Assembly: GCA_030695905.1 (NCBI GenBank)
Contig: JAUYOL010000034.1
Coordinates: forward strand, 1-50,612
DNA length: 50,612 bases
Direction: 5' to 3'
Source: Candidatus Omnitrophota bacterium
GTDB lineage: Bacteria; Omnitrophota; Gorgyraeia; 2-01-FULL-45-10
Notes under the pieces: generated by a model
The model's input: the letters and a program-made list of their open reading frames with translations, nothing else
What the model was told of the DNA's origin: nothing
The model's database searches: none
Made by a program: the position numbers and the translations under genes
Shown: positions 3,001 through 36,800 of the stretch, piece by piece
Layout: each line of letters opens with the position of its first letter
How positions within the stretch are numbered: position 1 is the first letter of the stretch

Positions 3001-6000
3001 AAAATATCATATGACAATATAAAAGCAATTGACAGAACAGAACTTTTAGAGGAGTGGAAAGACAAACTTTTGGAGATTGTCGGGGTTAAGATAAAGCAGC
3101 CTTTGAAACCCACTCCCGAACTAGCCCAACCACCCCATCCTCCCAAATCAATCTTCCCCGAAAAAGCTACAATGGAAACTACGGTCAGGCCAAAACCCAT
3201 TATGACTGAAGAAGAAATTCGCATTTCCATCGAAAATTTCTGGAGGAAAGGAAATAAAGACTATGACAAATTTCTGACCAAGTTTGAAAATCTCGAAAAA
3301 ATAGACGATTCTATTCTAAACGCATTAACATGTTTGCTTTTAGATGATAGGTATAGATATACGATTCATTTAATTTTATCATTAGAGAATATACGGTCAT
3401 CAGCAGTTAAATATCTTGAAAACCTTTATTTAGAACTTAAAAATAGGGAAAATAGAAAAGACGCCTATTTAATAGGAGAAGCTTTAGATATTTTAGGAAG
3501 CCCCGTTGGAATACATTCAAATATGGACTATTTACTGACTATGCTATACGAAAGATTGGGAATTATTAGCTCGGTTTTTCAACATGGCCCTGAAAATTAT
3601 GGCTATTTAATCAGTCAAGAAAACAGACTTTTTATGGAAGCCTGGAGAGATGGTTTGGAATCAATAGTTAAAACCGATTTTGCAAGAGATAATGCTATTA
3701 GAAAGAAAATTGATGAAATGATCGGAGGATTAGCTGCGCATGGCGCAAAGATTTTTCCTTATATTATTGAAAGGGTTAAAAATATCAATCAAGAATTAGA
3801 AAAGACAAAGAATGAATCGCTTCATCCCGACCATGATAAAGCTCAAATAGCAATAAATTGGTGCCTTAAACAACAGATTGGATTATTAAAAGAAGTTATT
3901 GAACGAACAGGTGCATATGGAACTTTGTTGCAATTATTAGAGTTAATATCAAACGAAGAATTCAAGCAAGCGGCCAGAATAGGAATAGAAAGTGCAATTT
4001 CTAATTTAATTAAGGAAGATGAAATAAACGGATCAGGCGAGAAATTCTGGAAGCTTTTTAGAGGTAAAAACGCGCCAAGTATTAAAAGGGTGAAAGAAAT
4101 TGTCACAAATGTTTTAATTGAAAGAACGCCAGATTCCGTAGATACATTGCTTTGGTTATTTGATATGCAACTTAACGATGTTCAGATTGATAAAATTATA
4201 CAAATTCTTAAGCCATTAAGTTTAATTGTTGTTCCAACGATTCAAAATTACGTTGACTCTTTAAAATGGTGGCAACCAAAAAGGGTATTGAAAAAAATTA
4301 TTAAAGTCGACTATAAAAAATTAGCTGTTCAATTAATAAATAAGCTTAAAGAAGCACCTGATAAGCGACATGGGTTGAACCAAAGTAAATCAAATAGAGG
4401 TGTTAATACATTTCTTATGAGTATATTTATAGCCTCCTCTTTATTAGGTCTTACCTATCCAACATTGGCTCAAGAACAGGTGCCCGAAGAACATATAGTT
4501 CAAACTCAACCCACTCAACCTGAAAAGAAGGTAGAGCTTCCTACTGCACCAGAAAAGAAAGCTCCAGAAAAAACACCAGCAGAAAAACAAAAAGAAGCAG
4601 AGGAAAAGATAAAACAGGAAAAAGCCGAGGCTGAACACCAAGTACAATTAAAGGCCGAAAGAGAAGAAAAGGAGCGTAAAGACGAAGAAACCCGTATCAA
4701 GCGAGAGAAAGATGAAGAGGGGCAAAAACGTGTAGATGCCGAGAAGTCTAAATCCAGAGAAGAAACATGGGAAAGCTTTAAGAGTGGAGCAGTAGTAGTA
4801 TTTAAATGGATTGGTGTCGGGCTTCTATTTCTTTTGGGAGTAGGATTGCTTATAGGAGTTGTAAAAATCTTAGAGGCGATTAACAAGAATATAAAACCCA
4901 TAGCCAGAGGCACGGCAAAAGCTGCGGTAGGTACAGCAAAAGGCACAGGTTTTCTAATAAAACATTTAGTTTTATCTCCTTATTATTTTGGAAAATATGT
5001 GGTCTACTATCCTTTAAAAGGTCTTTATATGGGGTCAGAGTTTACTATAAAGGCTATAGAAAAACGTAATGTAGCCACAGAAGTTATAAGTCTTATACTT
5101 TTCTTATCGGCATTGACAGGCTATGTAATCTATAAAGCCACAGCTTATAGTACCTTAATCAATATGCCCACGCCTTCCACAGGAGATTTAATAAAGATGT
5201 TGGAGGATCCATATAGAGCAATAATGTGGGTAGTTTTTGGTGCGGCAGGCATATTAACATCTATTGGCATCGTAAGATACATTGCAAGAAGTAAAAAGAA
5301 CCTGCCAGTAAGCGGAGTAGCGTTATCTTTAATCATTGTTTTTTCAAGCATAGCAGGGATAGCCAATTATCCTCTTGCATCTTATTTATCTAAAGATAGG
5401 GCAAGGGTAGAAGCGATAGAAGCGTTAAGTAAATCTACTGATCTGACATCACCCGAAGTAGTGGATAGTCTTATTGAGGCACTAAGCGACAGAAATGCTG
5501 ATGTAAGGAAGCACGCTGCCGAAGCCTTAGGTAACTGTGGAGATAAAAGGGCTATAAAACCGCTTATTCGTGCATTAGATGATTCTGAAGCAAGTTCTTC
5601 CGCTGCGTCCGCGTTAGATAAGTTAGGTGTTGTAAAAACAACCGATGATATAGAGTTATTGAAAAAGCTGCTAAAAACAAATTCTTATTATGGCTTTAAA
5701 AGTGAAGCAACCGCTGCCTTTGTGCGTATGGGAACGAGTTCTATTCCCGTTTTAATAGATATGTTATCGGATGATAATTCCGCTTTTCAGGAAGTGGCTA
5801 ACGATGCGTTAGTAAGTATTGCCAAAGAAAATACTCGTAGCGTACTCAATGGCTTAGAGAAGCCCCTATCTAATGATAAGGCAGGTGTAAGATTGAGAGC
5901 AGTGAAAATAATTATTGGTATGGATAATAAGCAAGATACAGTTGGTATTCTCACGCGAATCTCACAACAAGATAGGGACTGGGATATTAGGGAAAAGGCC

Positions 6001-9000
6001 ACAAGTCGTTTGCAGGATATTAAGCCGGACACCAAGGAAGCGGAAGTAGTAAAATTAATCTCTAAAAAGGACGAGGAAGGATTGGTTAAAGCAGGTGCGC
6101 CAGCGGTTGGGTTTCTGGTAAGTAACCTAGAGTCTTCGTCCGGATATTCGGAGAGAGAGCAGAGAGAAATGTCGGTAAAAGTCTTAGCTAAAATTGGCGA
6201 TAAAGCTGCTGTAGAACCGATTATCAAAGCGATGCAGGACAGTAAAATTGAGTCTAAAGTGGCGGTTGAGGCTCTTGGGCAATTGAAAGATTCTCGTGCT
6301 ATAGAGCCGTTACTTAAACTCAAGAAAGACTCTGATTATTCCTCAGATTCAGAACCGGGATGTGATAAAATCGCAGAAGCAATAGTTCAAATTAACGGAG
6401 GTAATCCTACCGATGCCCTTGTCAAGGCGTTAGGGGATGATAATAAAAATACACGCAGAATAGCCGTGAAGGCTTTGGCGCAAAGTAATAACCCCGAAAT
6501 AATAAAGCCATTTATAGAGAGACTAAAAGATGATGATGAAGAAGTTGTGGTTACAGCGACACGAGCACTGGGCAGACTAGCAGCCAAGGATGCGGTTGAT
6601 CCGCTTGTTGCGATTGTAAAAGATGAGAATATAAGGGGAGATAAACTAAAAGCTGCCACAGAAGCGCTTACACAGATTGGCCAGCCAGCGGTTATGCCTT
6701 TGTTGAAAATAGCAGATGATAAAACGGTAGGCGAAAGAGCACAAATTATAATAACAAGAATTGGTCAGGGTTCGGTAGATTCTTTAGTAGAGAGATTAAA
6801 TCATTGGAATCCATCGGAAAGAAAACAAGCCATAGAGCTACTTGCTAAAATAGGCAAGCCGGCAATTCCTTCTTTGATTCAGGCATTTGGTTCAGATGCC
6901 TATTCCGTGCGGGAAGGAGCTTTGAATGCCTTGATTCAAATCAGGGATACTGAAGCATCTGTTGATTTACTTATTAATGGACTACAGAATCAAAATTCAG
7001 ATATAAGATGGAGATCTGCTGCGGCTTTGATAGAAATGCCTCATCAGAAAGCCGTGGGGTCGCTTATACAATGCTTAAATGACACTTCTCCCAAGGTGCG
7101 CAAAACCGTTGCGCAGGCGCTAGGGTTTTATTCAGGTCTTGAGGCGGTTCAGGCTTTAATGCAACATTTGCAGGATGGGGATGTATTTGTGCGTAAGGCA
7201 GTGGTAATTAGTTTAGGAAGAATAGGATTTGGGTCTCAACTACGAAACGAAGTTACTTCAGCGATAATCCAAAAATTAGATGATACTGATTGGCAAGTTC
7301 GTGCCGCAGCTGCCAAGATTATTATAGCTTCTCCCGGGGTAGAAAATGCGCTTGTTTCACACCTTGAGGATCCAAGTCCCTATGTTAGAAGACAGGTAGT
7401 ATTGTCTTTGGGAAGGGTTTCTTCTTCAGCCACTTATTTTGACAAAGCTCTCAATGATTCCGATGAATATGTCAGACTAACAGCCATACAGGCAACAGAA
7501 CAGATAAATCCATTTTCTATCAATATTTCAGACAATTTTGTTTTAAAGACACTTTTTGATGATAATGAAAATGTAAGAGCAGTTGCACAAAAGGCATTAA
7601 AAGAGAAAAAAGATTTTCAGCTATCATATAGGCTATTGGAGATATTATCAGATGTTAGTAAGTCCAATAACGAAAGGGCTTATGCATTAGAAGCAATAAA
7701 AGCGCTAGATGAATTCGGGGCAAAAGTTTTAATAGTCGGCCTAGAAAGCAAAAATGATGCTATAAGACAGGTATCAGCACAGGCTTTAACAAAGATGGGT
7801 AAAACTGCCTGTGGCCAATTAGTTGAAAATTTACGTAACGAAGATGTTACAACGCGCCAAACCATCGTTAATATCCTAATCGAGATAGGCGATCCTGCCA
7901 AAAAGGATCTTTCTAAAGCCATTTGGGCTGAAGATGACCCTGAATTAAGCGGTTTGGCCAAGGCAGTGTTATATAAAATAGATTATACATCGGCACAAAA
8001 GATACATCAAAATCTATACTTTCGCTATGTAACTTGGCCTGAAATCAAAAAATGGACAAAGGTATTAGCTCCTTTATATTTTCTAATCTTGATAGGCATT
8101 GGAGGACTATTTGGAGCTATTAAATATATGAGAGAGCAAAAATCCAAGAAGAAAACATCACCAATCTTAAGGCGGGTTACGTTAACTCAAAAACCAATAA
8201 TCGTGGCAGAGGCGATTATTAAGAATGGATCAGAAGTAGAATTGCGTGTAAAATCCACATATCAAACTTTAATTACCATGAGAGAAAAGAAGTTACTGGA
8301 GAAAGTTTTATCCGAACTAGGGGCATCTGGCAACTCACAATTAATTCATAAGATAAGTAAAATTAAGCTTGTTACAGGAAATGATCGTCTAATGCATATA
8401 GACAAAAACATCCATGAGCTCGTGATTGATATAGATGCCTTTAAATCTTATTATCTTTTACTTATGGAGATAGAGCATGAATTACAGCATATTTTGATGG
8501 GTTCTTTAAATCAAAGAGCCCCTCCCCTGGTGGAGGAGCTTACTATTCTTCGCCATGAAATAATGCGTTTTCTTTCCTTTACAACTGACCAACAAGAAGA
8601 AGTTCTTTCCATCCTTAAGGCAGATAATGATCTTGATGATAAAAAATTCTACGAGATATTGGAATCTGCCCAACAGCATGATATAGAAGAGGTTTCAAGT
8701 CTACTCATCAAATATGTTATACGATTTTATCCTAAAGAACTGCGGCGCGGATTACCTGCCAAAATATTAACAACTTTAAAACAGGATATAGTTTCTCTCT
8801 GGCAAGACTTACACTCAAAAAGGATTGTTTCGTATCTCGGGACTAAATATGCGATAGAGCCGAAAATAGCCAAGCTTATGGTAAGGTTTCACAGGAAAAT
8901 GATGGAAGAAGTCCGGAAAAGAAGCATAGGTGAAGATAAGCTTGAACCTTATGAATTTACCCTAAGGGAATTATATAAATGGGCTGAGTTTTACAAACTA

Positions 9001-12000
9001 TTTCGTAATCAATGGGGAATTACCACATCATTTATAAAAGGCGCTATTTACATTTATGCCGACCGTATGGAAAATCAGAAAGATAAGAATAGGTTTTATC
9101 ATGATATAAATGCGATGAGCTTAGATTTGGAGGCATTGGAAGCCATTGATTATAAAGAAGGTAGGAAGCCTGATATAGCAACACTTTTGTCTAAAGAGCA
9201 AATTATAAAGGATACTGTTAGAGACAATAAAAAAATAATTGATGAATTAGGTATGGGAACTAATACTTCTTCCGATTCCGAATATATCCCTAGCAAACAA
9301 TCGGCTGAACTTGTCCATATTCCTCGGACAGTAGAAGATCTTGAAAAAATATCCTTGGCCGTAAAATTAAATGATCCCGTTCTTCTGATAGGAGAAACAG
9401 GCGTTGGCAAAACATCTTTGGTTAGAGATTTAGCATTTTTGACTAAAAATGCCTTCAGGCGTTTTAATCTTAACGGTCAGACGGACAAGTTGGAATTCAT
9501 CGGCGGATTTAAGCCCAAACGTAAGCATTCAAAACAAGATAAGACTGGCAAGCGGGAATTTAAATTTGAATGGTATAACGGTATTTTAATTGAAGCGATG
9601 CAGAAAGGACACTGGTTGGTTTTGGATGAGATTAATTTGGCGGAGCCGGAGGTTATAGAGCGCATACGATATCTTCTTGAACCAAAAGGTTATTTGAAGG
9701 TAAGTGAACATGAAGGAGAGCAATGGATACAGGACAATGATTATAATAATTTAGTTAATGAATTGGTTGGTGAATACGCAGATAAACATACCGAAACAAA
9801 AGAAGAATTGATTAAAAAAGCCGTTCAAAAATTATCAGACAAGGGTATTTTCAGGATCCATCCGAATTTCAGACTTTTTGCCACGATGAATCCGCCCGAA
9901 TACGAAGGTCGTAAGCAACTTTCACCAGCTTTAATGAATAAATTTAGGGTTAAATGGATAAGGAATTTTACCCACGATGAAATTTGCAAGATACTAGAAG
10001 AAAAATATCAATTAAGTGAAGATATAATTAATAAGCTCTCCAACTTTTATGTCGAATTGGCACGTATTTCCGGTAAGCAAGGTGAATTAGGCAGAGAAAT
10101 CGGGCAGCCGTATTATTTTACAATTCGGCAATTCTTCAGGCTTGCCTTACGTGTTCGGCATTGGCTGTCGCAATTCACAACTATGCCTTCCGAGGAAGTT
10201 ATAAACCAGCGCCTTGCTCTTGAATCGGAGGAGGTTTATGGAGATAGTTTAAGAACAGATGCGGATAAGAAATTGTTTAATAAATTGCTCGAGAAAAAGG
10301 AAATATTCGGTTATTTGCCGCCACAAATAAACACAGAAATAAAAATGGATGAATCTAAGAAGAAGGTTTGTTTTGGCGAGGTTGAACTACCCATCAACGA
10401 AAAAAAAGGTTTATTTGTCCCCACCAGCAAGGCAGAATTAGCCTCAATTTCCAGTACAAGACGAAATTTAAGGAGCTTGGCCCGATCAATCCAAATGAGG
10501 GAAAATATTCTTCTAGTAGGTCCTACCGGAAGCGCGAAGACAGCATCGCTTGCCAATATAGCATATTTGACTAGGAATAATTTTATTCGTCTTAATCTTG
10601 ATAGCCAGACAGATATAGGCGATTTAATCGGCAAAAATGTTCCTGAGGAAGGAACTTCCGGTTTCCGATGGCAGGATGGTGATCTTATTAAGGCGATGAG
10701 AGAAGGCTATTGGCTTCTTCTTGACGAGTTCAATTTAGCGGAACCCGAAATCTTAGAGCGTATTAACTCTCTTTTAGATGACGATGGTTCGTTAGTGGTC
10801 ACGGAACATGAAGGTGAAGTGTGGATTCCTGGCAATATTTATGATGAAAAGAAAGCTAGCGGTGAAGATATGTCTAAATTCCAGCGCATTCATGAAAACT
10901 TTAGATTATTTGCCGCTATGAATCCGGAGCATTATGCCGGTAGAAATAGACTGTCATTGGCAATGAAAAACAAGTTTATCGAGAAATGGTTCAGCGGGGA
11001 TTTTTCTTCTAATGAGATAAAAGAGATAATAAGATTTTATCTGACCAAAGAAAATCTGTTCAAGGGGCCTCCTCTCCCAAATAAATCTATAGACGCTATA
11101 ACCGAATTTATGGCATCCGTTCACCTGTCTATTTTACGCATGATCAAAGAGAACAGGTTCAATAGGCTTGCTTTATCTGGTAACGCCGAAGATTATAATT
11201 TTAGTCTCAGAGAACTTAAGGACTGGGCTGAGTTTATCAGGAATTTGGTTATGGAAGTTGGCGAAGGAGTTATTACAAAATCGATTGAAGATAACAGAAA
11301 GAAATTAAATAAATTACAGAGACAATTAACCATAATATCTGATCCCATAGAAAGAGAAAAACATATACAAAAACTTAGAGAAGAAAAATTGATACCTTTG
11401 GAAATCTCATTTCAGCGACAAAAAGATGAAAATGAGAAAAGAAAGATAGAAGCGGATATAATGGAACTAAATAAAGAAATAAACAGATTAAATGATCCCC
11501 GCGAAAGAGAACAATATAAACAAGAATTGCAAGTCGATATGGAAAAAGTCAAGCAATCTATTGCGTCTTTTGAGAAGATTGGAAATGACAATGATACGAT
11601 TTGGCATTGGGGTATAAATAGGGCTGTATTCGATGGATCTCTATATATTTATTGTGATCGGTTATATGGGTTAGCCGCCAGGACTAAAGAGCATACATCG
11701 GGTGATAAAGATATATTCTATGTAGAAATTTTAGAGCCTATATTTACACAATTAATACAGACAGGCATTGGTGGCCTCGAGGCTATCGATGTCGAAAAAG
11801 AAAGACAACTTTTAGGGGAAGGCATAAGCCCGGATGAGTTAATTAGAGGTGCGAAAGAAGAAGGTATGGATGTGGCATCACAAAAATTAGCCGTAAAATT
11901 TAATGATCTAACTTTTAATTATCCCGAAGAGCTAAGGGGCTATTTAACGAAGATATTTAAGGATCTGACTAAGCCAGAGACCCAGATTCAAGGTATCTAT

Positions 12001-15000
12001 GGCTTCGCTCTTTTACCCAGAAAGACTGCTCTTAGGCTTGTTGATATGGCATTAGATCATCCTAACCCAAAGGTAAAACAAGCCGCAATGGAAACATTGA
12101 CTCAAATATTTAGTGAAAGAGACGAAAATTTTGCTAATGACTTCACACCATTCACAGGTAAATTGGCAGTATTTCTAAGCGATGAAAATCAAGATTTAAG
12201 ATTGACTGCAGCGTTAGTTTTAGAGAATTTAAACTGGTTAGAATGGAAAGGAATAGCCATACCCAGGATTTCCGAACATCCTGAAAAACGCCCCAAAAGT
12301 TTACCTTGGGACGAAACCCTTAAAAGACTCATTAAGTTAAAAGACGGTACAGGAGATTATTTAGGAATCTTTGGATTTATGAAGAGTAAATTAACGCTTG
12401 CCTCGATGCTCCTTATAAGCTCCGGAGCCATGATTCTGATCACCCCTTTTATATTACAAGCATCTTCTTTTAGCATAGGAATAGCGTTGATCGGAGCTCT
12501 AGGGTATCTGTCAGCAATAAAAATTTGGAGGCCCATTAAGAAAGAAGATGTTTCCACACATATACTTGCCGGTTGCGTTGCATTAGTATTATTTACTTTA
12601 CCTGCAGTATTAGGTTTATATCTAAATAGCTCAATTCTCGCCTTGTTTGCTCATTTGATCGTATTTTTAGGAACATTAGGGATTTCGATAGGAATGTTGG
12701 ATTTGTTAGGCCTTTCTTATTATCTTATTTACCTACCTCAACTCGGCATACTTTCTATGAGATATGATAGATTAGCCTTGGACTTAGATGATTTTTACGC
12801 TCTTCTTGAAAAAACAAAAGAAGGCAAGTTCATTCATTTCCCATTTGAATCGGAAGAAAAAGTTAATTACTTTAATATGTGGTATGGCAGGGCTACTCTC
12901 TTGACCGGATTTGTCGTAGGAATAAACTTTGTCATCTCTCTATTTCATACCGCAAGGATAGATAGTCTTCCAGTGATTCCTTTTATTGGTTGGATTCCGC
13001 CATGGCTACAGATCAGTTTTGGAGCGCTTGTTGGAGGCGGCCTGGGGTATTTTGTCTCTAGTTTTACAATTTTAGCTGCTGGTACTTTTAAAGAAATGTT
13101 GTATAAACCACTAAAAGCAATCCGTGTAGATAAAATCAAAGAAAAAGACTGGATTGGATTCAAAGAACTCTTGTCAGCTTATGACTCATCAATCATAGAA
13201 GCTTTCAGAAAATATCGCAATAGATTACTTAAAAGCGATGAGGGTATAGATGATGCAGAGAAAGAATCGACAGGTAAAAATGCTATACTACAAACATTAC
13301 GGCCGGATGCAATTAAACGCTTAGATAAAGGTGCTCTTGTATACACCATTTTTGTACCAACGTCATCTTTAGATGCAAAAGAAACCCAAGTATTCATTCC
13401 CGAAGCAGAAAATTCTGAATTAATTCCTGTTGTTGATACAGTGAAGGCTTTAAAACAAATAGCGCTTTCCGTATTGTTGGATGATCCAGTTTTGTTAGTT
13501 GGCGAAACCGGTGTTGGTAAAACATCTTTAGTGCGATATTTAGCTAATCTGACAAGACACAGTTTCAGGAGGTTTAATCTAAGCGGCCAAACAGACAAAA
13601 CCGAATTTATAGGAGGGTATAAACCAGGGGCAACAGGGATGTTCCAATGGAAGGACGGGATACTTGTGGAGGCAATGCTCTATGGTCATTGGTTGGTATT
13701 GGATGAATTAAATCTTGCGGAGTCGCAAGTCCTCGAGCGGTTAAACTCACTTCTAGACGATGATCGCACCTTGGTCTTGGCGGAACATTCAGGAGAACAT
13801 TTCAAAACCAAGACAATATATGAAGAAAAAAAGAAAGAGGAAGCCAAGGAATATTTTGATGAAGTTAGAAAGGTTAACTATATAGTAGATAAAGACGGAA
13901 GAAGAATCTATTGTATTCATCCGGAATTTCGTTTATTTGCCACAATGAATCCGGCTGAATATGCCGGGCGTAAAGTTCTTTCGCCGGCCCTCATGAATCG
14001 ATTTAGAGTTAAGTGGATAGACGACCTAACTATTACCGAGAAAAAGCTAGTACTTTTAGAGAAATATTATAATCAAATCGAAGGAGATAAAGAAAAACAT
14101 TTTATCTTTGGGGACGGGGTATTAGATCGGCTTGGTATGTTGCATGAACGCATATCAACAGCAGCCAAATCACGTGAGATTGGCAGGGATTCAATCGACC
14201 CATATCATTATTCAATACGCGATCTCTTGAAACTGGTAAGAAGAGCAGTGAGTAGAGTAGGCTTAAAAGAAAACAGCATTGGTGTACTTTTAAATAGTTA
14301 TGAAAAACAAGATATATTTGTCGAAGAACTACCGGAGGTTTATAAAGATAAAATTCGCGATAGAGATGAAGAAGAATTTTTAGGTAATATTTTTATTAAT
14401 GCAGCATTTAAATATAGTTCTAAGTTAGCTGAAAATCTGCAAATTGATCAAACCAATTCCGCTGTTAACTTTGGGGAAATACCTCTCTTGAAAAATACGA
14501 GAGGTGGTCCATATATACCAGGCGCTGAGGCAAACTTAATTCATACACCAGGCACTTTGCGATATCTGAAAAGAATCGCTAAAACTATTATCATGAATGA
14601 AAAAGTTTTATTGGTAGGCCCGACTGGAAGCGCAAAGACCTCGTTGATCCGTTATCTAGCATATCTTACCAAAAATAATTTTGCCAGAATGAATTTAGAC
14701 GCGCAGACGGATACCTCTGAGCTTATCGGTAAGCATGTCCCTGTTGAAAATAGAAAAGGTGAGTTTAAATGGCAAGATGGCATGTTGGTGGAGGCATTAA
14801 AAGAAGGGTGGTGGGTGCTCCTTGACGAAGTCAATTTAGCCGAAGCCGAAATATTAGAACGTATCAATTCTCTTTTAGATGACGATGCCTGCATGGTAAT
14901 AACCGAACATGAAAATGAAAAAATCATTTCAAATGCCGAATATGAAAAGAAATTAAAGCCATTTATTGAGGAATATATCAATTCTGGCGCGTCTCAGAAA

Positions 15001-18000
15001 GAAGCAAGACAAAGGGCAATCAAAAAACTTACAGAAGAAAAAATATTCCCAATCCATCCCGATTTTAGATTATTTGCCGCTATGAATCCGGAGCATTATG
15101 CCGGGCGGAATCGGCTATCTATGGCGATGCGCAATAAACTTACTGAAATCTGGATTCCCGGAGACATGGATATTAAGGAATTAACTGAAATCGTGAAAGG
15201 ATTTTTAAGGGAGTATTCACAGGGCGCAATTAAGGAAAGAGATTTAGAATCGATAGCCAATGCCATGGCTTTGTTTCATACGAAACTGCAAGAAGTATTT
15301 AAAAAGTGTGCAGTTTTTACGACAGGATATGAGTTTAGTATCAGAGAATTGCGCGTTTTAGCTCGTTATATTTCTACATTTGGGCCTACGATAGGCATAA
15401 AGGAAGCTTTAAGGAATGGGATAGCCTATACTTATATAGACCGCCTTCATACCAAAAATTTCCGATTTAAGGATGAAAAGGGAGAAGAGAAAGAAACGAA
15501 TGATAGAAAGTTATTTATTGAAATTCTTGAGGGGATACTGAAGGAAAGCATACCTTTATTGGATTTAGGCTATTTAGAATCATATGCATCCGGGAAAATA
15601 ATTTCTGAAATAAAATTCGGCGATAAAACGATTAATTTTGGTGGCGTTTCGATCCCGATAAATGAAACGAATGGTTCAGAATATGTTCCTAGCGAAGAGG
15701 TCGCAAGGCTTGTTTTAACGCCCCAGACAAAATCAAATCTTGGTAAAATAATCCAAAGCGCGATTTTAAAAGAACCTCTTTTATTAGTGGGCGAAACAGG
15801 TGTTGGCAAGACCTCCTTTATCAGGTACCTAGCCAATAAAACACACAATAATTTCCGTAGATTCAATCTAAGCGGTCAGACGGAAAAACTGGAATTCATT
15901 GGAGGTTTCAAGCCAGATGAAAGAGGCGTATTTATTTGGCATAAAGGGATATTAATCGAAGCGATGCAGAAAGGACATTGGCTAGTTTTGGATGAGATTA
16001 ATCTCGCCCCTTCCCAGGTTATTGAGCGTTTAAATTCTCTTTTAGATGACGATGAGTTTTTGGTGATAACCGAACATGAAAATGAAAAATGGGTACAGTC
16101 GGAAGTATATGATAAACAAAAGAACAGATTGCTTAAATCCGATCCTAGCGCAATTAAAAAAGATTCAGACGACACAGAATATCTGTTGATTAAATCTGCA
16201 AAATTATATCGTATCCACCCGGATTTCCGTCTCTTTGCCACAATGAATCCGGCAGATGCCGAATATGCCGGGAGAAAAAGGTTCTCACCGGCTCTAATGA
16301 ACAGGTTTAGAGTTAAATGGATAGATGAATTCCACAGGGATGAACCTGATGTACGACAAATCCTTCAGGAAAGATACGGTAAATATCTACCGAACTGGCT
16401 TCTCGAAGCCGCGTTAGATGTTCATTTTCAAATGCATGAAAAAGGAAAAGAATTAGCGGATGGCAAAATATATTATACCATTCGGCACTTGATGCGCTGG
16501 CTAGGTCGCGTGAAAGAAGCAGGCGTTAAAGACGAAAATGAACTCAGAAGAATAGCTGCGTTAGAGGCAAAAGAAGTTTACGGTGATGGTCTGTCGGATG
16601 AGAGCAGTCAAAAATATCTTAAAATGGGAAGAGAAAATGCAGATAGAGTAAGGGAAAAAGGCCTTTATGATATATTGAAAGAAAAATTCGGCGCTGATTT
16701 TCAGGATGACGATATTCAGATCGGCAATAAAGATGGCAAGGTTTACTTTGGGAATATTGGCGTTCCAATAAATGGCAGACAAGAAAGTTATATTCCGGCC
16801 TATCCTTTAAACTTGACTTATTCTACTAGCAGATATCTAAAAAAGTTAGCTAAGGCAGTATTAAGAAATGAGCCTATCCTTCTTGTAGGACCTACGGGCG
16901 GAGGGAAAACCGCTTTTGTAAGGCAGTTGGCCGATTTAGTTAATATGAATTTTATAAGCTTAGATCTCGATGGGCAAACAGATGTGGCTGAGCTTATAGG
17001 ACAGTTTATACCAGAAGAAAAAACTGATAAGTATAAATGGCATCCCGGCGCATTACTCGAAGCTCTAGAGACTGGCAGTTGGATTCTAATCGACGAGCTA
17101 AATCTGGCGGAACCGGAGGTATTGGAGCGGATAAACAGTCTTTTAGATGATGATGGTATCCTAGTTGTTACAGAGCATGAAAATGAAGTCTATATGCCGG
17201 CAAGATTATATGATGCTAAAGTAAATAAGATGAAAGAAGAATTAAAGAAAAAGGATAATCTTTCGGAAGAAACCGCAATTAATGTTGCACAAAAAAAGCT
17301 AAAAAATCAGGGTTTCCATTGTATTAAGCCTAATTTTAGGCTATTCGCCGCCATGAACCCTGAAAGTTATGCAGGAAGAACTAGGCTTTCCCTTGCCATG
17401 CTTAATAAATTTAGCCTATTATGGGTTCCTGGTGATCAGCCAGAATCGGAACAAATATCAATAGTTGGGCATTATTTATCCGTACCTGCGAAACGACAGG
17501 AAAGCATTAAGATACCTGAAGAAATATTACATGAGGCGGTACCCTCCAAGGTTGCAGTTACTCAAGCAGTAAAACCAGAAGAAGCGAAAGAATCAATATC
17601 GATGTCTGAAAAAGAAGTGAAGTTGATTTTTGATAAAGCCGAAGAGTATAAAGAAAATAAAGATTATCATAATGCCGAAAAATTATATAGTGAAGTAATT
17701 AATCAAGCGGAGATTCAACATAAGGAATCGGAATGGTGGTTTTATAAGCATGCCTACTCTACTCGAGCACTTGTTCGTAAATATTCTAAAAAGTTTGATG
17801 AAGCAATGTCTGATTATCTAAAAGCAATTACATTAAATCATGGTATGAGCATTGTCTGGATGGGAGTTAAAGATTTATTAGATATTGTCAGTAACCCAGT
17901 AAGGCAAAAAGCAATAATTATAATAAAAAATGCAGATTTGAGTAAGGACGCATATGGTCTGGCATTCCAAGCGCGCTGTTTATTGGATAGCGCGAAATTT

Positions 18001-21000
18001 ACAGATGGGCCATTAAGAAAACTATTGTTAGAAAAGTCTTTAGCTTGTTGTGATGCAATGTCAGATGATACAATCAAGGTTTCCATGGAAGTGCAAGAAG
18101 CGCAGGAAGAATTGAAGAAGATTGATAATCAAGGTAATACTACTATTGGTTCAGAAGGAGATGGGAGTTCCAGCGTAAGTTTTGTTAATTATGGAAGATA
18201 TATGGGGATGATTTCAAATGGTAGTTTTGCAGAGAAAAAAGTAAATTTCGCAACCGAGCAAAAATCATCTTCTGAAGCGACATCGTCTACGGATTCACAA
18301 GAATCAAGTTGGCTTGGCAAGTTAAACCACTGGAATAAATTGCGAAGGATCAATAGCGCAATGCGTAAAATCGAATTAACCGCGAAATTCTTTGGAGGAG
18401 ATTTCAACGTTAAGCTAATGCCTCATCCGGGAAACGAGTGGGGTATTACTTATGATACCGATCCACCGACGATTATGTTCCCTGAAAAAGATTTAATGGA
18501 GAAAAGCTGCCGGCACAATGTGGCGACCGCTATGCACGAAGGAGGCCATCGCGACATCACGTGGATTGACCCGGAATTTAATAAGTCAGAATCAACGCGA
18601 TTTTTATTCAATGCTGTTGAAGATCCCCGGGTCAATAATTGGATTATGGCTAAGTTTAGAGGCGCGGGCGATTACTTCGGCGATCTTTATAAAGAAACCT
18701 TTCCGATAGTTCAAAAACAGCCGTTTAACGATTCAGTAGTTTTGCCTCATATTCAATATGGTTTAGGATTGATACATTATTGGTTTTATGGCAAAGAACA
18801 CCCCGCTATTAAGAATAAACGAGTTTTAGATGCCTTGCAAAGAACCAGAGAAAATGTTATCAATGCATATGAAACATTGCCGGGAACCATTTCTGTTAAA
18901 AAAGAACGCGGCGAGAGGATAACAGTCAGTTCGCCCATCTTTAAGCCTATGCCAGTCGATCTTCCACCTATAGGCCAAAGACAATATTTGGGCCAGCCCG
19001 ATATAAGTGCCATACAACGTATAGATGAGGACAGAATTGTATTGACCACGGCAAGAGGTCATAAAGAAATTGTCCATTTATCGGATGGAAAAACTTGTCA
19101 AGTTGTGATTAATATCAGCCCTAGCGCTGAAGAAAAAATTAACGCCGCGCAAGATGCTGCTTGGATTATTAAGCATAAGATATTACCTATATACGAAACG
19201 CTGGTAGAAGAATCTAAAAATGTAGCAAAGCAAGGTGTGGGTCAAAAGGGTGGTAGTGGCATGTCTTCTCAAGAAAGAGAAGGTAAAGCTGAACAGGAAG
19301 TGGAGCAGAAGTCTAAAGAAGCAGCAGATGCGTTAGGGCGTAAATTCCCCATAGACGAGGAATTGGAAAAGACGGTTTCTCAAGATAAATCTAGAGGTGG
19401 CAGTCCAGAGAATAAAGAAAAAGAGGAAAAAGAACAAGGGGGAAAAGACATTAGTAATAAAGATGCTAAAAAACAAACAGGGCAAGGAAAAGAAGTTAAA
19501 ATCGGACAGGAAAAAGAATCGCCAAGTAAACAGAGCGAAGAAGAGGAACGCCAAGATGTTGCTAAAGGTAAAACTGCCGAAGAAGAACAAGGAAAGGAAT
19601 CAAGGGAGCGACCAAAGGTAGTTTCTGAAGACGAGGAGTCTCTTACAACCCAAAAACAAATAGATCTTGCAGCTAAATTAGAGCATGATATTAAAAGAAA
19701 ATTAACGCGTTACGATGAATATTATCTTCCTATGGCTCATTTAATTGAACAACTATTTGGTGTACTGGATAATGAGTTGCATAAGGATATTAAACCCAAG
19801 TATAAAGGAGATTTTGCTACCGGAACAAAATTAAATTTAAGAAAAGCAATGCAAATGGAACATACTGCGGACACCGATATATGGTTAAGGCGAGTAAAGC
19901 CTGCAAAGCGCAGTTTTAAGTTTGCACTGGTCTTAGACGAAAGCGGTTCGATGGGCTCTCCTGATAAGACAATAAATGCCATGCATAGCCTAGTATTGTT
20001 ACAGGAAGTGCTCTCAAGATTAGAAATCGATTTTAGTGTCATAGGTTTTAGCGATAGAGCTTGGACCCATAAAGGATTTGGGAAAAAATTCAGATATGAA
20101 AATAAAGACGACTTGATAAGCGAAGTATTAAGTTATATGCAACGAGGGCAAAGCACTAACGATGCCGAAGGTGTAGAGTTAGCGACTAAACAATTGGAAA
20201 ATCAGGATGGAGACTCAAAGATAGCCATTGTAATTACTGATGGACAGGGTAATGGTCCGGAGAGGGTGGCAAATTATTTAGAAAAGGCTCGCAAAAAGCA
20301 CATTGAAGTAATTGGCATTGGAATTGGTTATGCTATGGGCTACGTAAAGGGTGTTTATAGGCCGTATATTCTTGTCAATGAAGTCGATGATCTACCAAAA
20401 GTATTGGCCAAAGTATTGATAGATATTATAGTACATCAGAAACCTACTTCTGAGGTTGGGGTTAATGGCCTTTCGACGATTCCCGACATTAAAAATGATA
20501 ATTCTACGCCTACGAATTTTATGACTGAGCAAGGCACTGGTATAAAGACCGGTGTATCCAAGCTATCAGAACATTTACCACCCAATGCTAATGGTTTTGT
20601 TGTCCCAGAGCTTCTAGCGGTACTTAGCGGTATAACCTTATTAATTTTAGGCATGCCTTTCGTATTGAGCCATATCAGTAGCATTTTAATTGGAGGCAGT
20701 ATATTAGGTGCATCATTAGTGATTATTAAGTATATTAAAGATACTATTCAAAGTCATAGAGAATTAAGCGATATCGATAAATCTGCTGAACAAGGAAGAG
20801 CTATTTTAGAAAAGAATAAAAAACATATAGAAAAGGAAGTTGGAAAACTGACCAAAGAACTTCAAGCTATTGAAAAAGAAATTTCATCAGTCATGGAAGA
20901 AAAAGCAGGTATTGATAAAAAAATAGATGGCTTGAAGGCATCCGAGCAACAAACGACAGAAGAAGCAAAAATAAATGCCATAAAAGATGAAATCGGTGCC

Positions 21001-21930: not shown

Positions 21931-22533
21931 ATGATAAGCAGACTTAGTGAGCATAGTTCCGATAGCGCATTACTCGAAGCATGCTGTCAGCATGATGAAT
22001 TCGCTTTTAAATTACTTTACGACCGGTATAGTAAGCTTGTTTATAGCGCTATCCATAAATGGATAAAAACATATGCATCTAAGAAAGAAGATCGGAAAGA
22101 AGATATCAAGGACGTTTTTCAGGAAGCATTTATAGATATGGTGGAGAACAATTTTTCGAGACTGCGACAGGCAAAGGATCCGAATAAATTAAGTGGTCTT
22201 ATTTTTATAATTGCGCATCACAGAGCTGGTAAATATTTTACTAAAAAATGGAAAGAAGGCGAGTTTGTAGAAAAAGATTTAAAAAATATACCATCTCCGG
22301 AAAATATTATTGAAAATCTTACTAGAGAAGAACAGAATTCAATCGCGGAAAAATTCTTAAATACTTTGAGCAAAAAAGAATACGATATCATGGAGTTGCA
22401 TCTTCATAGAGGTTTTAAATATGACGAAATTGCCGCAGCTATGAGACTTTCTAGGGTGTACGTCGGTGTTATTATTAACAGGGTAAAAAACAAGATGAAG
22501 CTTTATATTAAGAATAAATATGGCGAAGTATAA
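21931..22533 (+). CDS. ECF-type RNA polymerase sigma factor
   Basis: This 200-residue protein has the two-domain layout of an extracytoplasmic-function sigma factor. Region 2 (about residues 25-95, with FKLLYDRYSKLVYSAI and DVFQEAFIDMVE) binds core polymerase and the -10 element. Region 4 (about 140-195, with LSKKEYDIMELHLHRGFKYDEIAAAM and an HTH) binds the -35. Region 1 and region 3 are absent, as expected for the class. The ATG follows AGGAAA at about 10 nt. The next gene (22594) encodes a zinc-finger anti-sigma candidate, a standard pairing in which the anti-sigma holds the sigma factor inactive. A bipartite motif that occurs twice right after this gene is a good candidate for its own target promoter. 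Confidence 0.88.
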   Translation: MISRLSEHSSDSALLEACCQHDEFAFKLLYDRYSKLVYSAIHKWIKTYASKKEDRKEDIKDVFQEAFIDMVENNFSRLRQAKDPNKLSGLIFIIAHHRAGKYFTKKWKEGEFVEKDLKNIPSPENIIENLTREEQNSIAEKFLNTLSKKEYDIMELHLHRGFKYDEIAAAMRLSRVYVGVIINRVKNKMKLYIKNKYGEV

Positions 22534-22539
22534 AATTTG

Positions 22540-22573
22540 TGTAATAAATAGACCCAAAGATGTATCTATATCA
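22540..22573 (+). promoter_or_regulatory. Bipartite promoter-like element, copy 1 (candidate ECF target promoter)
   Basis: TGTAATAAA (22540-22548), an 11-nt spacer and ATGTATCTATATCA (22560-22573) lie between the sigma and anti-sigma genes. The same two blocks with the same spacing recur at 22996-23029. Placed as -35 and -10 regions, the start site would be near 22575, just before the AAAGGAG ribosome site and ATG of the anti-sigma gene. The distance fits a promoter for that gene. Confidence 0.5.
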
Positions 22574-22593
22574 GTTGAAAAGGAGATTTTAAA

Positions 22594-22974
22594 ATGAAAC
22601 GCAAAAGGGACGCAATCGATAGTTTATTTATAAATTATTTTAAACATAAATATGGTGAAGAAAAAGAGTTGCCCCGCGGTGGCGTGGAGCATATAAAATC
22701 CGGCGTGGAGATTAAATCCCCGCTTGATTTAATTCCAAAAGAGAAGAAGACCACATGCCCACCAGATGTCAAATTAGGCGCATATATAAATAATGTACTT
22801 AAAGGAAACGAGAAGGCGGCGCTTGAAAAACATTTATCGACTTGTCCCGGTTGTAAAGATAAAGTCGAATCTGGCCGCGAAATAGTAGAAAAATTCGAAG
22901 AAGGAAAGCTCCCGAACGTTCCGGATAGTATTTCTTTTCCCATATCCGATCTTAAAAAGACATCCCGCAAGTAA
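22594..22974 (+). CDS. Putative zinc-finger (zf-HC2-like) anti-sigma factor
   Basis: The protein has 126 residues and is very hydrophilic. Its middle contains CPPDVKLGAYI followed by EKHLSTCPGCKDKV, that is a Cys, then His-x3-Cys-x2-Cys, the ligand pattern of the zf-HC2/ZAS anti-sigma domain. No membrane helix is visible, so it would be a soluble anti-sigma factor, in contrast to most membrane-bound members. The start is supported by AAAAGGAG about 8 nt upstream. It lies 60 nt after the ECF sigma gene and behind copy 1 of the bipartite motif, which suggests an autoregulated sigma/anti-sigma pair. Similarity rests on the ligand pattern only, so another small zinc protein is possible. Confidence 0.65.
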   Translation: MKRKRDAIDSLFINYFKHKYGEEKELPRGGVEHIKSGVEIKSPLDLIPKEKKTTCPPDVKLGAYINNVLKGNEKAALEKHLSTCPGCKDKVESGREIVEKFEEGKLPNVPDSISFPISDLKKTSRK

Positions 22975-29836: not shown

Positions 29837-30463
29837 ATGCTGATACCCTTGCAAAGAAAAAAGATATTGGAAATATTCATGAGTGATCCCTCGGGGGAGA
29901 TACACTTGCGGGAGATCTCTCGTCTTTCCAAGGTTTCGTTAAATAATGTTAACAACACTATGCGGCAATTTGTAAAAGACGGTTTATTTAAAAGACGCGA
30001 AATCTCCAACATGTCTTTATTCAAGCCGGATCTTGATAGCGAAGACCTACTTAAGCTTTTCGAATATATAGAGCTAAAAAGGAAAACGGTATTTTACGGC
30101 AAAAATAAGAGCATCGCTCGCTTGTTAGAAAAATACACTGTCAATATTATCGAGCTATCAAAAAGACAAATACAGCTTGTGGTCCTTTTTGGATCAGTGG
30201 CTAGAGGCGAATGGGGCAAGGGCAGCGATATAGATATATTGGCTGTGAGTTCGAATAAAGATAAAGACGTTATTAATATCCTAAATAAAGCAAAAATAGA
30301 CGTAAGCCCTCTTCTCGAAATTACCCCGATCTCTACGACGATAGAAAAATTTACGGAAGGTCTCAAGAAAAAGACCGAGTTTTATCATGAATTGTGGAGC
30401 GATAGAATTGTTCTTTATAACGAATCATTATTCTGGCAATTAGTCAGGGAAGGGAATAGGTAA
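29837..30463 (+). CDS. HTH-MNT nucleotidyltransferase antitoxin (MntA-like)
   Basis: The protein has 208 residues. An N-terminal winged HTH (about residues 20-65, IHLREISRLSKVSLNNVNNTMRQF) is joined to a minimal nucleotidyltransferase domain (about 105-200) with GSVARGEWGKGSDIDILAV, an exact GS-x10-DxD motif. In known MntA/HepT systems this enzyme AMPylates and silences the HEPN toxin. The fused HTH would let the antitoxin also repress its own promoter, and paired repeats overlap the -10. The start has ACGAGG at 6 nt. Its stop overlaps the next ATG by one base (TAATG), so the pair is translationally coupled. The function is inferred from the family and pairing; both key aspartates are visible. 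Confidence 0.85.
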   Translation: MLIPLQRKKILEIFMSDPSGEIHLREISRLSKVSLNNVNNTMRQFVKDGLFKRREISNMSLFKPDLDSEDLLKLFEYIELKRKTVFYGKNKSIARLLEKYTVNIIELSKRQIQLVVLFGSVARGEWGKGSDIDILAVSSNKDKDVINILNKAKIDVSPLLEITPISTTIEKFTEGLKKKTEFYHELWSDRIVLYNESLFWQLVREGNR

Positions 30464-30960
30464 TGGCAAAAGATATTGAAAAAATATTACATGGATGTTT
30501 CCATCCAAAAGAAGGCCGGCCGAACCTGCATAAAGTGCCGGTTAATATAGAACGAGCAAGACAGCATATCGATAAAGCCCGCAAGAACCTACGGGCGATG
30601 AAAATAATGTTTGATAACGATCTATTCGACTGGACTATCATCTGCGGATATTACGCTATGTATCATGCTGTCTTAGCGGCTTTATTTAAGATAGGCATTC
30701 GCGCAACGGCCCATTACTGTGCTATAGCGGCATTTAAAGAATTCTATGTCAGGAGGGGCAGGGTAAGGCCCGAGTATATTAGTTACATTAAGAAAGCAAA
30801 GCAACTTGAGCAAAAATATGCCAATACCTTAGAAAAAGCACAAGAGGATAGAGTTATAGATCAATACGGGGTCGAAGTGCTTACAAATGACGATGCGGAA
30901 TGGATACTGGAAGATGCGAAAGATTTTGTACTTAAAATAGAAGAAGTGCTGGCGGGATAG
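30463..30960 (+). CDS. HEPN-domain protein, candidate toxin partner (HepT-like)
   Basis: The 165 residues are mostly helical: NIERARQHIDKARKNLRAMKIMF, DWTIICGYYAMYHAVLAALF, and a C-terminal acidic helix. The ICGYYAMYHAVLAAL stretch is characteristic of HEPN proteins. The usual RNase motif is R-x4-6-H; here I see IRATAHY, that is R-x3-H followed by a tyrosine, so the catalytic call is less certain. The gene overlaps the MNT gene by one base and is followed 2 nt later by the DUF3024 gene, suggesting a three-gene operon. Family role: ribonuclease toxin neutralised by the MNT protein through AMPylation of a tyrosine near the HEPN motif. Confidence 0.8.
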   Translation: MAKDIEKILHGCFHPKEGRPNLHKVPVNIERARQHIDKARKNLRAMKIMFDNDLFDWTIICGYYAMYHAVLAALFKIGIRATAHYCAIAAFKEFYVRRGRVRPEYISYIKKAKQLEQKYANTLEKAQEDRVIDQYGVEVLTNDDAEWILEDAKDFVLKIEEVLAG

Positions 30961-33843: not shown

Positions 33844-33872
33844 TTGCCTGCGCCTTATTCTTGTAGTATTCT
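33844..33872 (+). promoter_or_regulatory. Possible promoter for the GGDEF/ATPase gene
   Basis: TTGCCT (33844-33849), 17 nt and TATTCT (33867-33872) would start transcription almost at the ATG at 33880, giving a leaderless message. This fits the lack of any Shine-Dalgarno sequence before that ATG. Read-through from the arsenic operon is equally possible. Confidence 0.3.
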
Positions 33873-33879
33873 ATTAGAA

Positions 33880-36800
33880 ATGGCTACCAATTCACAAGAT
33901 GCCCGTTTTGAGGGCCCGTCCTTTATCGATCCGTTAACGAGGCTTTTTAATCGTTACTACCTGGATCAATTTATTCCGCAGGAGATAAAAAAAGCAGGTC
34001 TCAGTAATTATCCGTTATCTATACTTATGATAGACGTGGACAAGTTCAAGAAGATCAACGACGGATACGGCCACCTTTGCGGCGATAGAGTCCTGACGCA
34101 GGTCGCGGAAGCCATCAAGAAATCCATCAGGCAGACCGATACGGCAATAAGATATGCAGGAGACGAATTTATAATTTTATTATCCGGCGCCGATAAAGAT
34201 AAGACCGCCAAGATATGCGGCACTCTTGTTAATAACATCGAACAGACAGGCTTTACCGGGGACAAAAACCAGAAGATCAATGTAACGCTAAGCATAGGCT
34301 ACGCAGTATTCCCGGAAGATGCCGATGATAAGACCAAACTTATAGAGATGGCTGACAAAGCGCTGTACCTGTCTAAAAAAAGGGGCAGGAACAGGTTTGC
34401 CTCCGCAAAAGAAGTTACGGCGGAGGAAGTAAGCTCCCTCATCGCGATGGAATCGTTTCCATGCCGTAAATTTATCGACAGGCAGAAAGAATTGGACGCG
34501 CTCAAAGGGATGGTTTCGCTGGGCATAAAATCCGGCGCGCCACAGGCGGCATTCATAGTGGGCCAGTCGGGAGTGGGTAAGACAAGGACCCTGAATGAGA
34601 TAATAGAGTATATAAAAGATCAGGCTATTATTGTGCATTGTAATGCCTCCTCGCAGCATTCCAACGACCCATATTATCTATTTGCCAGGGGCCTCGGCGG
34701 CTACATAGATAAGGCAGGTATGGATAATCCTGAAATGACCGACATATTACTGAAGATGCCCTCGTCCGAATTATCCGAGCTGGGCCTTGTAGTTCCGCAA
34801 TTAAGGAAGCTGATAAAGAAATCGTCCGATCTGACAATAGATGATAAAGGCAGAAGGTTTTTGATATTCAAGGCATTTTTAAATTTTTTAAGCGCCTTGA
34901 GCGGCCTTCTTCCCGTTTTTATAATTTTTGACGATATACAGTGGTCCGATAGCGCGAGCCTGGAACTGATCCGGCACCTGATTAAACAAAAAAAAGATAA
35001 GAATATATCGATAATCTGCGCTTCTATGGATGACAGGCTTGCGCAGTATCCCGAAGCGAAAAAGATCGAGCTTAATAATCTATCGAACGATGACACGGCC
35101 CTCATGATAGAGGCCATCTTCCCGGAACCGGGAAGATCGAAAGAGTTTACCGGTTTAGTCTACGAGGCCACGAAGGGCAACCCTTATTTTATCGAAGAAA
35201 TTCTCAAGTGGCTTATCGAAAAAGGCATTATATTTTATCGCAACGACGCCTGGCAGGTTAAGTCCGGCATAACGGGGAATGACATACCGGCATCGCTCGA
35301 CGATATTATAAAAAGCAGGCTAATGTCCCTGGATGACGAGACAAAGGAAATGATACTGCAGGCCGCTGTAATAGGTAAAAATTTCCAGTCGGATATTTTG
35401 AACAAGCTGGGGGACAAAAACGAGGGCTTCATATCGGAATTGATAGAGCGCGCCAAAAGTATGCATCTTGTAAGCGATGTGGATAAGACAGGAGGGTTTG
35501 ATTTTGTAGGAGATCGCACGCAGGATATATTATACAGCCAGCTGGATGAGGACCAGCGCAATAATATGCATTATAAGATAGCCGAGGCGCTGGTAGATGA
35601 ACACAGGGATAATATTTATGACGTCGCGGGCCAGGCCGCGTTTCATTACAGCCATGTTCCGGGACGGGAAAATGCCCTAAAACTCGGTAAAGAGCTGCTG
35701 GAAAAAACGAAAGAACTGTTCAACCCCGGTGAAATAAAAGAATATCTGGAGCAGTTCGCGCAGGAGCTTCTTTCCGGAAAAGAGAAAACAACCGTCGAAT
35801 TAAGCGACAATATGATGAAAGAGGCGGTAAAGTTCATCCTCTTTACCCAGGGTGCTATTAAAAAGATACGCCTTTACCCTCCGACAAGTTCGGTTAGGCT
35901 TGGTACAGTAAAAGAAGCCTACGCTATTATAAATAAGATACTGGGTGAGTCAGAGACCCTGGTTATTACCGAGGTAGAAAAGAGCCTCGTAGTAAACGGT
36001 AGGCGTTTGTCTCCGGGTGAATCGGAACACGCCAAGGCGGAAGATTTTGTGCATATAATGATGGAGCAGGAGATAAAGACAATATCTTTTAAGACTTGCC
36101 TGCGCGAAGACGAGATCGGCAGCCTTATAAACCATTTATCGATAGGCCGCAAAGATGTGGCGGATAAAGGCGGGTGGGCGGCGCTTATAAATAAAGAATC
36201 GCTCGAACATATAGGGATAGATGAACTGCACTTCATATCCGTGGATGAATACGCGCAAACCGGCCGCGGGAGAAAAGGTTTAAGCGATCTCATGCTCATG
36301 GAGTTTTTGATGGGCAAGATAGACTCAACCGCGGTAAACAGGGAAGAGATCATCCATAATATAGAAAAGAATCCTCAGGCTATAGCGCGGGCGATAACCG
36401 ATATAGCCAACACGGCAATGGAAAAAGACGGCACGCAGGACCAGGCCAAGGTTATTACCGACGCTGTAACGAAAATAGACGCCCAGATATTCGACGCAAG
36501 ATCCAAAACCGGCAATCACCAGAAAGATATGGCCAAGATAATTCTGGAATTAGAGCCCGGCCTTAGGCATAAAGTTATAGGGTCTTTTATGTCCGAATCA
36601 AGGCAGGAGCAGAAGAAAGTAGCTACGGGCATAATGGGCGCTCTTACCGATGATTTTCTCATAGATGTTATAATGGAAAAATATAAAGACAATATGTATA
36701 ACCCGCTTCTTATAAAAGAGTTTATCGACGAAATTTTGATAAACCAGGAGCGTAAAAAAGAAGTTTTGGAGAAATTGGAACCTAAATTATTGCAGCTTGA

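Follow-up and report, generated by a model that had tools for sequence, protein, structure and literature searches.

Single-chain rings of six AAA modules are known from eukaryotes, in midasin, dynein and RNF213. Midasin (Rea1/Mdn1) acts in pre-60S ribosome assembly, where its metal-ion-dependent adhesion site (MIDAS) binds the UBL domains of Rsa4 and Ytm1. It has been established for this protein that each large AAA domain rests against the small domain of the preceding module, and in its structure the small domain of AAA6 (AAA6S) is absent, with the N-terminal domain standing in its place next to the large domain of AAA1 (AAA1L) (PMC6286127); the pulling of a ligand bound to its MIDAS has also been published (PMC11603028). 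Bacterial systems such as RavA-ViaA, NorQ-NorD and CobS-CobT pair an AAA ring with a VWA protein (PMC7159879). In the present study, we analysed a giant open reading frame (ORF) on contig JAUYOL010000034.1, a stretch of 50,612 nucleotides (as a whole, the window) belonging to an Omnitrophota metagenome-assembled genome of 1.82 Mb in 43 contigs. The ORF is one open frame at window positions 1-21783 of the + strand, on which all of its features given below also lie, and encodes at least 7260 residues; since the frame has no upstream stop and the window start is the contig start, the protein is cut at its N-terminus. Judging from its sequence, we hold with high confidence that the product is a midasin-type protein.

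Six AAA cores were recognized, all of them matched by Pfam AAA_5 at 72-101 bits (cut-off 22): AAA1 at 9256-10011 (AAA_5 match 9376-9945; GETGVGKT), AAA2 at 10387-11043 (10504-10977; GPTGSAKT), AAA3 at 13366-14070 (13486-14004), AAA4 at 14485-15207 (14605-15135), AAA5 at 15658-16380 (15775-16308) and AAA6 at 16762-17478 (16873-17412). Walker A, Walker B DE and FRLFA(T/A)MNP are present in 6/6 modules, in keeping with the original prediction, which had described P-loop, Walker B and sensor 1 as intact throughout. When the AAA3-4 pair was compared with the PDB, midasin was the best match (E=4e-139), followed by NorQ (6e-6) and dynein (1e-3), and with a single module midasin stood at about 1e-135 and the others at about 1e-5 (dynein from 1e-3 to 1e-6 over the searches), the midasin values being partly inflated as they sum over its six modules. 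The best single-module alignment gave 90 bits for midasin versus 29 bits for NorQ. In the reverse direction, profiles of these bacterial AAA families gave midasin modules about 70-160 bits, whereas the scores from CobS and other MoxR profiles, themselves built from few sequences, were clearly lower.

The C-terminal part points the same way. A charged flexible linker at 19288-19704 (about 140 residues, 27% D+E and 22% K+R) is followed at 19705-20520 by a midasin-type pre-MIDAS motif and a VWA domain (PF00092, E=2e-12) with a complete MIDAS, formed by DESGS at 19936, STND at 20152 and TDG at 20236, and it is midasin again that gave the best PDB match to this domain (E=4e-12; CobT, 0.03). The pre-MIDAS motif GDFATGTKLNLRK...DIWLRRVKPAKR aligns with GDFRTGKRLNMKR...KIWMRRVKPSKR of midasin, and residue-level alignment of the two proteins places the consensus G(D)xxTGxxLN(L/M)(R/K)...IW(L/M)RRxKPxKR ahead of the C-terminal MIDAS. 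The original prediction had named both the linker and the complete MIDAS, and the resemblance of TGxKLNLRK, DIWLRR and KPAKR to midasin, to which it had pointed, is borne out residue by residue; among solved structures, nothing comes near midasin as a relative of either the AAA modules or the VWA domain. No fitting family was found in NCBIfam, where CobS models reached 43-46 bits (cut-off 559) and GvpN fell far under its cut-off. These sub-threshold matches, the PDB ranking and the profile scores rule out an identity as ordinary MoxR protein; a reading of that kind with no affinity to midasin fails because midasin is the nearest solved relative and its modules score well below this level on CobS/MoxR profiles. 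The two-gene MoxR systems share with the giant the pairing of AAA ring and VWA, but they consist of separate chains forming homohexamers and are far less similar in sequence, whereas here everything lies on a single chain.

The order of the lids was not foreseen by the original prediction, nor was the truncation at the contig edge. Six lids with the sensor-2 motif Y-x-F/Y-T/S-x-R accompany the six cores, in the order lid, core1, lid1, core2, lid2, core3, lid3, core4, lid4, core5, lid5, core6. As delimited by lid hidden Markov models (HMMs), lids 1 to 5 occupy 9976-10305, 11008-11385, 14035-14409, 15172-15567 and 16345-16680; no lid comes after AAA6, downstream of which the lid HMMs score about zero, and an isolated lid precedes AAA1 at 8812-9189. 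This N-terminal lid is of the even-module type: an even-lid HMM built without it recovered it at E=1e-16 and 57.5 bits, versus 24.3 bits for the odd-lid HMM, and Pfam PF17867 (Midasin AAA lid) matches it at 26.2 bits (cut-off 22.7). A chance lid upstream of AAA1 was rejected, the best of 500 shuffles reaching 9.8 bits versus 57.5.

Related giants repeat the pattern. They fall into two families of the same layout and 25% identity, distant from each other: family A, with the window protein, L018, L020, L021 and L023, and family B, with L029, L030, L034, L037 and L048. The N-terminal lids of L018, L020, L021 and L023 prefer the even-lid HMM too, and in the lid tree the N-terminal lids group with even lids across a 100/100 branch. 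In family B, the N-terminal lids score 39-52 bits with P-type (even) and 7-12 with E-type (odd) lid models, while the region after AAA6 scores below zero in 4/4 proteins tested. The displaced-lid layout is thus found in ten giants from two divergent families, in every place that the available sequence reaches. On this evidence the six-module chain is circularly permuted, with the lid of AAA6 carried ahead of AAA1. Because large domains pack on the preceding small domain, a chain S6-L1-S1-...-S5-L6 closes as naturally as one in the usual order, and we infer that the ring here would be closed by the N-terminal lid packing on AAA1.

Structure prediction supports the view that this lid, AAA1 and AAA2 are neighbouring modules of a single-chain ring. 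An AlphaFold2 model of the three together reached a mean predicted local distance difference test (pLDDT) of 82 and a predicted template-modelling score (pTM) of 0.78, and Foldseek aligned it over some 870 columns with dynein (best E=5e-21) and, close behind, with Rea1 (9e-19), at identities of 13-15% and 18-22%, respectively. Within the portion modelled, nothing speaks against an intramolecular six-module ring. Cytoplasmic and axonemal dyneins, the top structural matches, share the single-chain six-module ring, but their sequence match is weak, they have no VWA domain, and their microtubule stalk is absent from the Omnitrophota giant. Dynein AAA6 keeps its small domain.

The modules alternate between an E type (GETGVGKT...FIGGFKP; AAA1, AAA3 and AAA5) and a P type (GPTGSAKT; AAA2, AAA4 and AAA6), giving E-P-E-P-E-P as in a triplicated dimer. 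In the module tree, the odd and even modules of family A each form a clade (99.8/100 and 99/100), and the family B types behave likewise; deep nodes are weak, and the midasin modules entered into the tree were transcribed from PDB alignments, with AAA1 and AAA6 partial and AAA6 a composite of two yeasts. With these data, orthology of module i to midasin AAAi was rejected in the same and in the shifted register (approximately unbiased (AU) test, p=1.4e-4 and 2.9e-4), and positional orthology of all family A modules including L023 was rejected as well (p=2e-6). In L023, the odd modules are more alike among themselves than to the modules at the same positions elsewhere, and this is true of the even modules as well. 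The midasin modules as one clade were not rejected (p=0.066), and an E/P split common to A, B and midasin (2-4-6, 1-3-5) was not rejected either (p=0.53), which allows such a split without proving it. The rejection of positional orthology with the other A giants means that L023 was triplicated separately or homogenised, and from the alternating clades and the topology tests the growth unit was a dimer, with arrays made or homogenised more than once. A common origin of the six-module arrays with that of midasin is neither shown nor excluded by these sequences.

Relatives with fewer modules suggest how such a chain may have been built. In Deltaproteobacteria/Myxococcota, Planctomycetota and others, single-AAA genes adjoin a separate HExxH-VWA gene, which carries HExxH, the ED motif (HExxH...EDPRV), the pre-MIDAS motif and VWA; we found no family name for this two-gene system. 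It is of the same AAA class with the same motifs as the giants, but it has one AAA module (two in L045) and the lid in its normal place. At the Margulisbacterial locus L045:3110-9129, both AAA types occur in one ORF of 1127 residues, in normal lid order, beside a separate HExxH-VWA gene. The single-AAA genes with their partners look like the precursor state, and L045 is a possible intermediate, so that these gene arrangements make plausible a path from two genes through a dimer to a single chain, in which the dimer has been triplicated, the lid displaced and the VWA fused on.

Midasin and the giant have in common the six MoxR-clade AAA modules on one chain, an AAA6 without lid, an N-terminal domain ahead of AAA1 (helical in midasin), a charged flexible segment and a C-terminal MIDAS with the same pre-MIDAS motif. 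The claim that midasin has exactly this order goes too far, and module-by-module orthology was rejected, although the affinity of AAA and VWA to midasin stood. The stem-middle-top linker of midasin, about 1700 residues, is absent here; 820 residues separate the AAA6 core from DESGS, and they contain a weak TPR repeat (17752-17841; PF00515, 26.5 bits, just under the cut-off of 27.8), the charged linker and an interposed HExxH domain with no known midasin counterpart. Walker B, absent from AAA1 and AAA6 of midasin, is intact in all six modules here, the E/P alternation is off by one in register, and the modules are not positionally orthologous. Membrane segments and HEAT repeats also set the Omnitrophota giant apart. 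Ahead of the MIDAS, midasin has a D/E-rich segment of about 600 residues, and the giant has the charged linker of about 140. The helix-2 alpha inserts of midasin modules 2, 4 and 6 have no long equivalent in the window protein; inserts in the helix-2 region are about 72 residues long in AAA1 of L018 and L020 and, at the matching place, about 110 residues in family B modules 1, 3 and 5.

The interposed domain (18337-19287, limits approximate) is zincin-like, with HEGGH at 18535 and NAVEDPRVN at 18610. HExxH and N-A-x-E-D-x-R-x-N are invariant in 5/5 close homologues, the gluzincin-type pattern of HExxH with a conserved downstream Glu is present, and the same HExxH/ED motif pair recurs in the two-gene HExxH-VWA partners. 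As a guess from these motifs, the domain might bind a structural metal or clip an extracted partner. Another HExxH motif, HELQH at 8476-8490 just ahead of the displaced lid, was assigned to no family.

We consider it rather probable that the giant protein is a bacterial midasin-type mechanoenzyme, with a permuted ring tied to the membrane, pulling on a partner through its MIDAS and descended from a two-gene system. Three E-P pairs would form one ring of six AAA+ modules, closed by the module-6 lid at the N-terminus on AAA1 and tied to the inner membrane by hydrophobic segments ahead of AAA1 (8065-8121, with positive charges in the stretch after it) and in the interval from AAA2 to AAA3 (five segments, 12397-12948), these and all other membrane segments being called by hydropathy. 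ATP hydrolysis in the ring would move the flexible charged tail, while the VWA/MIDAS, docking on the ring as in midasin, would grip a partner protein and pull it off or out of an envelope-associated assembly; ring, grip, docking and ATP-driven pulling are all proposed here by analogy with midasin (PMC6286127, PMC11603028). The HExxH domain may process what has been extracted. The target is likely an envelope-associated complex, a link to the ribosome being without support here, and any cellular role can be assigned with low confidence. Descent would have run from single-module AAA and HExxH-VWA partner genes through duplication and fusion, as the relatives suggest. The topology of family A (signal, one transmembrane segment, AAA1-2, an even number of transmembrane segments, AAA3-6), as read from L021, would keep the ring cytoplasmic.

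Several points weigh against this picture. The long linker of midasin, the part that generates force, has no counterpart here. The model of AAA6 and the zincin-like domain is of mixed quality and poor outside the folded domains (pLDDT 60), and Foldseek matches to it fell on the AAA part only, which leaves the zincin fold unproven. Cellular location is blurred by the signal-like N-termini of full-length homologues and by the missing transmembrane segments of family B, where L048 (6470 residues) and L034 (6885 residues) have a Sec-signal-like start and, by hydropathy, nothing ahead of the AAA ring that convincingly spans the membrane; an ATPase ring so placed would come to lie outside the cytoplasm, in a compartment where one expects no ATP. 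The rejected module-by-module orthology, the odd and even clades within each giant family, which speak for arrays amplified separately or homogenised, and the register one off from midasin all favour convergence instead, that is, a fusion of ordinary MoxR-VWA modules into a six-module chain within Omnitrophota and with no special tie to midasin, which it would resemble no more than any MoxR-clade AAA does. We regard convergence as improbable: for AAA, midasin lies more than 100 orders of magnitude ahead of other solved MoxR-clade proteins (in part by six-module summing), the single-module scores keep the same ranking (90 bits vs 29 for NorQ), the VWA with its pre-MIDAS motif is independently nearest to midasin, and the missing last lid is common to both.

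The signal-like starts of the full-length homologues, which reach 8314 and 48,300 residues, would also suit an envelope or attachment giant in a bacterium with a predatory or host-associated way of life, its AAA ring doing no more than power the export or assembly of the protein's own exported HEAT/adhesin part, and adhesion or predation is what has been proposed for Omnitrophota giant ORFs (PMC10066038). The AAA, zincin and VWA parts are conserved, however, while the remainder varies widely among homologues, and the two-gene versions have no giant exported parts; we think this explanation unlikely, if a little less so than convergence. Least probable of the three is a chelatase-like machine for metal insertion after the manner of CobS-CobT, NorQ-NorD and magnesium chelatase, its ring and VWA twisting a substrate enzyme and its HExxH handling the metal. 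The partner VWA proteins are weakly CobT-like (TIGR01651, 27.6 bits with a cut-off of 759; CobT_C, 25.9 bits), and in the mixed-quality model the AAA6 core comes closest in fold to NorQ and CbbQ, but midasin modules score far lower on CobS/MoxR profiles, the CobS/CobT models stay far below cut-off here, no adjoining gene encodes a metalloenzyme, and it would be unusual for a chelatase to be anchored in the membrane or to carry giant HEAT arrays.

Few genomes have homologues of the AAA pair (3 of 384 in the class), and the VWA marker occurs in 35 of the 384 sampled Omnitrophota genomes, in many cases within open frames of 5,000-11,000 residues and once in a frame of 35,009 residues. The frame of 35,009 residues, in another Omnitrophota genome, holds its midasin-type VWA match at G229:C9:63456-64163. 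L023 of JPNA_metabat.7 lies in one frame of 48,300 residues (G385:C26:29654-174553), which has about 106 hydrophobic segments and is of a size with the largest proteins reported from this phylum. The genome of the window itself has at least three more giant frames of 3684-5947 residues on contigs C11, C32 and C3 (L099-L101, L104-L106), whose N-terminal domain is also that of the L021 giant; one of them runs into tandem repeats where its contig stops. An N-terminal extension of the window protein was sought on these three contigs, given their related giant N-termini, and none of them overlapped the window start.

Elsewhere in the giant protein, a HAD-like hydrolase domain (1198-1920, outer limits approximate; FDLDNT at 1216, GDD at 1858; PF08282, 24.9 bits, cut-off 20.9) is followed by four hydrophobic, likely transmembrane segments (4816-5364) and a HEAT-repeat array (5422-7920, limits approximate; PF13646, E=1e-86, 8 stretches), and two further hydrophobic segments lie near the C-terminus (20611-20727). 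With the two HExxH motifs, these account for the membrane, HEAT, HAD and peptidase parts that the original prediction had listed. Directly downstream, at 21931-22974, a weak sigma-70/ECF-like protein and a zf-HC2 protein form a possible sigma/anti-sigma pair. Farther along are adjacent nucleotidyltransferase (PF01909) and HEPN (PF05168) genes (29837-30957), likely an MNT-HEPN toxin-antitoxin pair, and an ORF of 1324 residues combining GGDEF, AAA_16 ATPase and HEAT repeats (33844-37818). Two tandem RND-transporter-like ORFs lie tens of kilobases from the giant gene, both here (42390-48691) and in JPNA_metabat.7 (G385:C26:194399-201657), which may reflect a loose synteny.

The published Omnitrophota giant ORFs are likewise very long, with membrane helices, and from the same phylum, but they have few annotated domains, and the paper uses neither the word AAA nor the word MoxR (PMC10066038). 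In a search that covered no preprints and few subscription papers, we found nothing tying midasin to bacteria or AAA rings to the giants of Omnitrophota; novelty cannot be concluded from this. Our main new result is the circular permutation of the chain, and with it come the bacterial six-module chains with a midasin MIDAS tail, an exact account of how the ring can close, the two-gene relatives and the two-module intermediate. We infer that the Omnitrophota giant may illuminate the origin of midasin, a thought strengthened by the shared displaced sixth lid. Tentatively, and with the odds against it, one could go further and take the N-terminal domain of midasin for its displaced AAA6 lid, with midasin and the giants both stemming from a single AAA/zincin-VWA system of bacteria, in which the alternating E-P ring became one chain by the same unusual route of moving the sixth lid to the N-terminus; a core machine of eukaryotic ribosome assembly would then go back to a bacterial ancestor that worked at the membrane or in the envelope. 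A lid-profile search of the midasin N-terminal domain sequence gave no match.

With the bacterial chains, the displaced-lid account, the two-gene relatives and the two-module intermediate at hand, the origin of midasin becomes directly testable, and the Omnitrophota giants offer a first concrete bacterial comparison for how midasin arose. The displaced lid offers a reading of the AAA6S that is missing in midasin and, for the phylum itself, one class of its poorly understood giant ORFs gains a molecular identity.

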